Below, piece after piece: positions 23,028 to 25,391 of a DNA stretch of 64,000 bases. A program made the position numbers and the translations under genes. Source of the DNA: an uncultured Prevotella sp. (lineage in GTDB: Bacteria; Bacteroidota; Bacteroidia; Bacteroidales; Bacteroidaceae); NCBI GenBank assembly GCA_947167845.1, contig CAMVJQ010000002.1:1-64000 (forward strand). Reading direction: 5' to 3'. Under the pieces are notes generated by a model, which saw only the letters and a program-made list of their open reading frames with translations, was not told the origin of the DNA and did not search any database. Positions within the stretch are counted from its first letter, which is position 1, and every line of letters begins with the position of its first letter.

Positions 23028-25391
23028 ATGAGAAAGAACAGACTGCTTTCCCTGTTGCTGATGGCCGCGATGCTGGCCACGACAGCCGTGTTCACCGCGT
23101 GCTCCTCTGACGATGACGCGCCGGAGAAAGACCCGAACGTGATCATCGCCGGTGAGAACGACCCGCTGGGCGAGCCCATCGGACTGGTGTACACCGACTT
23201 CCTGACCCCTAACGACGTGACCCACAATGCCGACACCACCGAGCTGAGCATCAGCAAGGCGCTGGCCGACAAGAAGGGCATCACCAACTTCGTGAACCGC
23301 CCCATGGGTATCTGGGATGACCAGCAGCACCGTTCCTACCTGCGCCGCGCCACGGAGCAGCGGCTCGTGGGCGACCGCTACGTGCTGAAGGTGGTGCGCT
23401 CGTCGGTTGCCGAGGTAATCAACGGCCAGGAGGTGCAACTCAACACCCACCTCTACTACAACCCCGGCCGCATGGTGTCCCGCGGCGGACTGACGAGGGC
23501 ATCGATGGGCGACCCCGAGGCTGACAAGTACGTGGACGACAACAACGTGATCCACCCCGCAGCCATCACCCTGTGCACCAAGCCCAACAGCGGCGCCAAC
23601 TCCGAGGACCTGGACCTGAGCCAGGCCGGAAGCCGCACGATCACTATCGAGGATATGTTCAACGGCAAGACCGACGGCGCGAACAGTTGGCTCAGCGACC
23701 TGTGGGATGACGTCGTGGATGCCTTCGAGGATGCCTGGGATGCCATTGTTGATGCAACGTCGTACGACTGGGACCCCCACAACAATTGGAGCCTGCTGAA
23801 GTCGAAGACCACGATTTCCAGCGACGTAAAGTTCAACTGCGGCAAGGAGTCGGCCGACACCATCACCCTGCGCCTGCGCTGCCCCATCGAGTTCAACCTC
23901 GACTACACGCTCAACATCGACTCCCACGGCAGCATCGAGACGGCATTCGTGCCCGTGCTCGACTACCTGGAGACCTACGTCGAAGGCTACCTTGACGTCA
24001 ATCCCCAGGCGCGCATCGGATTCTCCAAGACCATCACCCTGCCTGAGGACAAGCAGCGCATCGACCTCTTCAAGTTCTCAGGCGTCGGCTTTACCTTCAT
24101 GCTTGGCCCCGTGCCCCTGACCGTCGACATCGACCCGAGAGTCTATCTGAAGTTCACCTCCACGCTCAAGGGCAATGCCTACCTCGGCGTGCAGTACGAC
24201 ATCGCCACCAAGTTCAAGGCCGGCTTTCGGTACAGCAACGGCAGCCTGAGCGGCATCGCCGAGGGTGAGAAGGTGAAGGACGAGTTCAGCTTCATCAACC
24301 CGAAGGCCGAGCTGGAACTCAAAGCCGGCGTGGGACTCTTCTTCGGCTGCGACATCGTCATCGAGAAAATCGGAGGCCCCACGTTCACCGTCGGCCCGCA
24401 GGTGAACATCAATGGCAAACTGAGTTACCAGATGGGCGACGACCGCATCAACGCCTCCATCGAGGGCAAGGCGGGTGTCGGCGGCGAGATAGGAGCCGTG
24501 CTCAAGGTCTTCGGCTACCAGATAGCCGACTGGCGCACCTACTTCGACATCGGCCCGCAATGGCAAATCTTCAAGTTTCCCGACGACGGCTCCGGCAGCA
24601 GCGGCAACTATGACCCGAACTACGGGGGAGGAGGCACTGGCGGAGGAGGCTCTGGGGGAGGAGGCGACGATGGCGAACCAGCCCTCGGTGACCTCTACTA
24701 CAGCGACGGCACCTTCAGTAAGACGCTTGAGCCGGGCAAGACGCCCATCGGCGTGATAGTATACCTTGACAACTGGATAACGACAGATGACGACGAAATT
24801 GTCGAGAAGGGCAACGGCGGCGGCCACGGCCTCGTACTCTGCCTGAAGAATGCAGCAAGCGCTGTGCCATGGAGTTGGGAGTATGTTTCGAAATTCCCAG
24901 GGCAGGAGGTGACGAATCTGGCAGGGCTGATGCGCACGACGAACGTGAGCGGCTACAGGAACACGGCAACGCTGACCGCCGATGCCGACAGATATCCTGC
25001 CGCAGCGGCAGCAAAGAACTATAAAGGGCTGCCGGCTCCCGCAGGCACCACGGGCTGGTTCCTGCCCTCGGCACAGCAGTGGGTGAAGATGATGACGGGC
25101 CTTGGCGGACTGAAGGCGAGTGATATTAGTAAATGGTGGGATTGGTTTGACACCAGCCACACTGCTGTTGACAATTGGGAAGCCGCCTTCAAAAAGGCTG
25201 GCTCTGGCAACTACGACAGCATGATACCCCACCTCTGTTACTGGTCGAGTTCCGAGTATTCCGACGATGGCGCCTTAGGTCTGTACGTCGACGCTGCGGG
25301 TCCGGTTGGTGATTGCGGTTTCTACTGGAGCGCCAACTATAAGAACCGCAGGTACGACGATTATCGCGTTCGCCCCGTCCTCGCTTTTTAG
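23028..25391 (+). CDS. Large exported lipoprotein with Gly-rich linker and C-terminal C-type-lectin-like / DGR-target-like domain
   Basis: TACSSDDD lipobox; GGGGTGGGGSGGGGDDG linker; LGDLYYSDGTFSKTLEPGKTPIGVIVYL...GWFLPSAQQWVKM...YWSSSEYS...RVRPVLAF. Confidence 0.75.
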   Translation: MRKNRLLSLLLMAAMLATTAVFTACSSDDDAPEKDPNVIIAGENDPLGEPIGLVYTDFLTPNDVTHNADTTELSISKALADKKGITNFVNRPMGIWDDQQHRSYLRRATEQRLVGDRYVLKVVRSSVAEVINGQEVQLNTHLYYNPGRMVSRGGLTRASMGDPEADKYVDDNNVIHPAAITLCTKPNSGANSEDLDLSQAGSRTITIEDMFNGKTDGANSWLSDLWDDVVDAFEDAWDAIVDATSYDWDPHNNWSLLKSKTTISSDVKFNCGKESADTITLRLRCPIEFNLDYTLNIDSHGSIETAFVPVLDYLETYVEGYLDVNPQARIGFSKTITLPEDKQRIDLFKFSGVGFTFMLGPVPLTVDIDPRVYLKFTSTLKGNAYLGVQYDIATKFKAGFRYSNGSLSGIAEGEKVKDEFSFINPKAELELKAGVGLFFGCDIVIEKIGGPTFTVGPQVNINGKLSYQMGDDRINASIEGKAGVGGEIGAVLKVFGYQIADWRTYFDIGPQWQIFKFPDDGSGSSGNYDPNYGGGGTGGGGSGGGGDDGEPALGDLYYSDGTFSKTLEPGKTPIGVIVYLDNWITTDDDEIVEKGNGGGHGLVLCLKNAASAVPWSWEYVSKFPGQEVTNLAGLMRTTNVSGYRNTATLTADADRYPAAAAAKNYKGLPAPAGTTGWFLPSAQQWVKMMTGLGGLKASDISKWWDWFDTSHTAVDNWEAAFKKAGSGNYDSMIPHLCYWSSSEYSDDGALGLYVDAAGPVGDCGFYWSANYKNRRYDDYRVRPVLAF

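Follow-up and report, generated by a model that had tools for sequence, protein, structure and literature searches.

The lipoprotein gene and its C-terminal domain

The window, that is the whole stretch of 64,000 nucleotides from an uncultured Prevotella sp. that was analysed here, carries a lipoprotein gene whose parts are listed in Table 1. The lipobox, as read from the sequence, is FTAC/SSDDD, and no Pfam match above the cut-off was obtained for the protein, its N-terminal region included. The first-pass annotation had proposed that the C-terminal domain is the target of a diversity-generating retroelement (DGR), in which a reverse transcriptase (RT) copies an A-rich template (TR) and misincorporates at adenines, after which the cDNA replaces the variable tail (VR). 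The motifs that it quoted were found in frame within the open reading frame 23028-25391, and its location of the tail was borne out, save that the frame starts at 25239 and not at 25238.

Just upstream of the gene, at 20392-22983, lies an ORF of lipoprotein type, 863 aa long, with Peptidase_C13 as its C-terminal domain (E=3e-29); the N-terminal part of this ORF contains a PPLTPPLDGRG...PLPSRGGAGVG stretch resembling an inserted repeat. The ORF directly downstream (25932-27275) has a VapE-like domain (PF05272, E=3e-33) and is perhaps part of a mobile element.

Table 1. The lipoprotein gene, its parts and related features (window positions unless another genome or contig is named)
Feature	Location	Strand	Remarks
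Lipoprotein gene, 787 aa	23028..25391	+	signal MRKNRLLSLLLMAAMLATTAVFTAC followed by SSDDD; lipobox read from sequence
Glycine-rich linker, N-terminal region to display domain	24600..24680	+	
C-terminal domain with predicted C-type-lectin fold, 236 aa	24681..25388	+	kin: tip pilin 4EPS, FISUMP/Lcl_C, DGR targets of the genus
Variable tail (VR-like), YWSSSEYS...RVRPVLAF, last 50 codons	25239..25388	+	codon positions 1 and 2 hypervariable, position 3 conserved
Conserved 3' end CGCGTTCGCCCCGTCCTCGCTTTT	25365..25388	+	where a DGR 3' homology site would sit; core unique in the recovered genome
67-bp tail-like fragment (L037)	G000:C106:3364-3430		near contig end, unrelated flanks
DGR cassette of G024 (L054)	TR 8676-8801, VR 9891-10016, RT 7387-8631		

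A sequence profile of the domain, built from ten relatives, reached one solved structure, that of a B. ovatus fimbrial protein (4EPS, E=2e-7). The AlphaFold2 model of the domain was of moderate confidence (mean pLDDT 68, pTM 0.71) and had its best fold match in 4EPS as well (Foldseek E=5.5e-6; Z=12.5 over 187 residues). Further down the list came Lcl_C (8q4e, Z 7.2) and three variable proteins of known DGRs, TvpA (2y3c, Z 6.9), Mtd and TaqVP (the last two with Z about 5.5), together with many C-type-lectin and formylglycine-enzyme folds; for the four named proteins, Z scores in this range would reflect a common arrangement of the fold and not kinship. The tail supplied the last strands of the model and is predicted to be the hypervariable hairpin of a C-type-lectin-fold domain, so that the fold expected of a DGR target, with the variable stretch at the C-terminus, is present in the moderate-confidence model.

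When the NCBIfam model FISUMP (TIGR02145) was run on the window protein, it scored 18.8 bits, below its curated cut-off of 41.65, and the Pfam family Lcl_C matched one of the ten aligned relatives. By its FISUMP score, the domain is a distant relative that falls outside the curated family. The domain is modular, as different N-terminal regions precede it in the window protein and in its four close homologues (L001, L002, L003 and L105). No relative was found in phage and viral collections.

Codon endings and codon positions in the tail

Most codons of the tail (40 of 50, or 80%) end in C or T (NNY), as the first-pass annotation had remarked, compared with 54% for the domain outside the tail and 63% for the gene as a whole. 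Part of this excess is due to the residues used there, since several loop residues can be written only as NNY. At residues with a free choice of third base, NNY codons made up 15 of 21 in the tail and 52 of 102 elsewhere, a difference that is not significant in the window gene alone (p=0.10). Over 30 family members the excess in the tails was significant (p=4e-5). The bias was seen in genomes with a DGR RT, and it persisted in 18 members from genomes without a DGR RT (p=0.005); as judged from these tails, the family-wide bias is not specific to present DGRs. Because near-complete relative genomes without a DGR RT show the same bias, the codon endings, which had been offered as a sign of mutagenised template adenines, make a weak argument when taken alone.

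Two other observations concern the tails of this family. NNY-biased tails occur in L028 (G028) and L010 (G052), whose genomes are 99% complete and gave no RVT_1 match. In two species, L016 (G020) and L018 (G071) have identical 50-residue tails on domains that otherwise differ, the reverse of what hypervariation would give, and some members of the family are therefore static.

To compare codon positions, we aligned the window domain with L001, L002 and L003, which are about 58-65% identical to it, and with the fourth close homologue, L105 from G287. The comparison is between species, with one genome per species, and the five sequences share ancestry, so that the columns are not fully independent. 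Outside the tail, variable columns at positions 1/2/3 numbered 81/77/130 of 175, which is ordinary coding behaviour, whereas in the tail they numbered 31/24/25 of 46; columns with three or more bases in the tail were distributed as 13/17/9. The third positions of the tail were more conserved than those outside (p=0.011) and its first and second positions less conserved (p=0.014, and p=1e-5 for columns with three or more bases). In 20,000 random draws of columns from outside the tail the inversion value of the tail was never reached, nor was it in any of the 130 contiguous stretches there. Between species, then, the tail has variable codons of the AAY type, in which positions 1 and 2 vary and position 3 is kept. 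The inversion is weak in the window-L001 pair alone (19/18/17). The share of mismatches in which one of the two bases is an A was also considered as evidence of DGR action and proved not to be discriminating.

The window gene and L105 differ at 15 bases in the first 19 codons of the tail, 13 of them at positions 1 or 2, and none of these changes is synonymous; elsewhere in the domain, codons for the same residue differ in 44 of 133 cases. Among hypervariable columns, 80% were NNY in the tail and 48% outside it. The sameness of third positions in the tail is in part due to this NNY content, given that among NNY/NNY pairs it amounted to 75% in the tail and 64% outside. The inversion of codon positions is what adenine rewriting of AAY codons would predict, and not what plain relaxation or protein selection would; this sequence pattern gives strong support, though not proof, for such rewriting.

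The same tendency is seen in the tail-like fragment on contig C106, which reads WSSSEYSANNAVRLRVDATDTG within a short open frame. Its identity is 79% with the window tail and, over 58 bp, 84% with the G287 homologue. From the window tail it differs at 14 of 67 bases (7/5/2 at positions 1/2/3) with no synonymous change, and from L105 at nine bases (5/4/0). As a template of the window tail it was rejected, as eight of the 14 mismatches face bases other than A and the 3' end is missing. The fragment is best read as the relic of a second tail.

Reverse transcriptases and templates in the genome and in the genus

That the window has no RT, as stated in the first-pass annotation, is correct. The annotation had supposed a remote template and RT, to be sought in the rest of the genome; this search was run on the recovered genome, which is 76% complete, and neither was found there. 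RVT_1 (PF00078) gave no match in the recovered genome, and a profile of four DGR RTs found nothing in it even at E=1. A DNA search of the recovered genome with the tail returned no second copy except the fragment on C106, the 3'-end pattern with three mismatches allowed recovered only the tail's own 3' end, and a single full copy of the domain was present. Since the genome is 76% complete, absence of an RT and TR from the species is not proven by these results.

The search was extended to 398 genomes of the genus with a consensus template guessed from the homologues. Apart from the tail, only the C106 fragment and the G287 homologue stood out; the remaining matches were short, mostly 20-60 bp, and many fell in the AAC-rich part of the probe. 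The TRs of G024, G229 (two), G117 and G077 were also tried as template for the window tail or those of L001-L003, and matched over short stretches only.

DGRs that act on related domains were nevertheless found elsewhere in the genus. In the G024 cassette (Table 1), all 16 mismatches between TR and VR are at TR adenines. Its target ends in a homologue of the window domain (27% identity across the domain, E=7e-11), so that the window domain is related to a proven DGR target; the G024 domain ends in VRAVLAF and has its VR at the same place. Unlike the window gene, for which no RT or TR is known, the G024 target has both nearby. Two paralogue tails in G024 (L072 and L075) were considered as recent remote VRs of its TR and found no support, with fewer than half of their mismatches facing adenines. 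In G384 (L110), the DGR RT adjoins a lipoprotein that ends in the same kind of domain as the window protein (LYFSDGTW...KTPIGIVF...GWYLPS...YLWSSTE...VRAVLAF); TR and VR differ at 10 sites, all 10 of them TR adenines, and the 3' end of the VR resembles that of the window homologue L002. This cassette is complete, with TR and RT, in contrast to the situation at the window gene. Further cassettes, mostly with A-only differences between TR and VR, were present in other genomes of the genus.

The genome of L001 (G229) contains two DGRs, and one of its TRs serves a near VR and a second VR about 40 kb away, in which 18 of 22 mismatches are at TR adenines. DGR action at a distance thus does occur in G229. 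The near and the remote VR of this genome (L055 5606-7596, L077) are each C-terminal in a small protein. The tail of L001 is matched by neither of the TRs found in G229. The other three of the four close-homologue genomes are without a DGR RT: G287 (L105) and G230 (L002) had no match to the DGR RT profile, and G231 (L003) had only a weak one, to an RT that has SP in place of the SQ of DGR RTs. Among 150 genomes of the genus, DGR RTs were found in 15 and the domain in 19; no enrichment for the domain was seen in the genomes with a DGR RT, three of the 15 holding it as against 19 of the 150.

Origin of the tail and comparison with known systems

We consider it reasonably likely, with a probability of roughly 60%, that the window tail is an orphan target of the DGR type, the machinery having been lost or never brought along. 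The tail would be a variable, probably ligand-binding hairpin of a display domain of the tip-pilin/FISUMP/Lcl_C type, and by analogy with that family the domain may be exposed at the cell surface. Elsewhere in the genus, the same domain family is rewritten by DGRs, and the window member has the scar that such rewriting would leave in its AAY-type codons, with variable first and second and preserved third positions; because of this scar, its ancestors were probably DGR targets. The gene could have become orphaned by loss of the cassette or by transfer of the domain, as a module, onto the window lipoprotein. Past DGR action followed by loss of the machinery is thus probable at this gene. The earlier reading as a DGR target is retained as regards fold, C-terminal position, lipoprotein context, homology to DGR targets of the genus and the AAY-type scar; the remote RT and template are the part that found no support in the recovered 76% of the genome. 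The refuting outcome that the annotation had set, no RT or template together with no excess polymorphism, was thereby half reached, on the side of the machinery.

Alternatively, the tail could still be an active target, rewritten at a distance by an RT and TR that were not recovered, lying either elsewhere in the genome or on a mobile element that failed to bin. A genome that is 76% complete leaves room for such a system, which would imply a DGR RT and an A-rich copy of the tail keeping GTTCGCCCCGTCCTCGC; the occurrence of DGR RTs in ten percent of the sampled genomes of the genus, the remote VR of G229 and the codon scar itself are in keeping with it. However, the homologues from G287, G230 and G231 have the same scar in genomes without a DGR RT, the weak match in G231 being to an RT that lacks the DGR motif, neither TR of G229 fits L001, and in the recovered genome neither the tail nor its 3' end is present twice. 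We therefore regard continued remote rewriting as doubtful.

The tail might also be that of an ordinary adhesin with no DGR history, shaped by point mutation and selection, its NNY codons coming from loops rich in Asp, Asn, Tyr, Ser and Gly. The finding of NNY-biased family tails also where the genome has no DGR RT, the lack of association between domain and RT, the identical tails of two species and the share of third-position sameness that NNY content accounts for are all consistent with this. Yet conservation of third positions is not expected from point mutation under relaxed or positive selection, and it is in the tail that third positions are more conserved, and first and second positions less conserved, than outside, with synonymous changes missing from its first 19-22 codons. 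Such an origin appears rather improbable. It is very unlikely, in our opinion, that the tails of the family continue to be diversified with no RT of their own, whether by mobile-element machinery working in trans or through RT-independent exchange of short segments, a reading that arises because near-complete genomes with no RT match (G028 and G052) show the DGR-like codon bias. Shuffling of cassettes, in which short segments recombine between lipoproteins and leave flanking codons identical around a changed middle, is hardly credible: the domain is found on unrelated N-termini, a 67-bp piece of tail lies elsewhere in the genome and the tail ends of distant homologues are alike at the codon level, but the differences form no blocks and are spread over codon positions 1 and 2, and with the domain present in full only once in the recovered genome the process is left without a donor.

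If the window tail is an orphan DGR-type target, as we prefer, such a target can be recognised from the codon-position pattern among homologues alone. Surveys of DGRs start from the reverse transcriptase, and therefore miss targets that are without an RT or far from it. Our results suggest that lipoproteins of the genus may often carry orphan lectin tails of the DGR type. Were the window tail seen to vary still among strains, this would point to machinery acting in trans.

Related domains are known from targets in human microbiomes, where DUF1566 (Lcl_C) and Fib_succ_major domains are found at the C-terminus of predicted DGR targets, among them a predicted lipoprotein and one target modelled on 4EPS (PMC4159848). 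Those targets were found through their DGR systems, whereas at the window gene the machinery was not found and the FISUMP cut-off was not reached. The protein of 4EPS, the Bacteroides ovatus tip pilin BACOVA_04982, resembles the window protein in ending with a C-type-lectin domain that has a hairpin at its variable site; however, the two are 17% identical, and no pilin domain is recognised N-terminally in the window protein. Bacteroides tip pilins are reported as DGR targets in PMC12632263, which cites other work for this. Finally, in Treponema denticola, target genes are present in isolates without RT and TR (PMC4891356). The Treponema TR is known from other isolates, whereas none is known for the window tail, but in both cases a DGR-type target gene has been kept without its machinery, at the window within the recovered genome.
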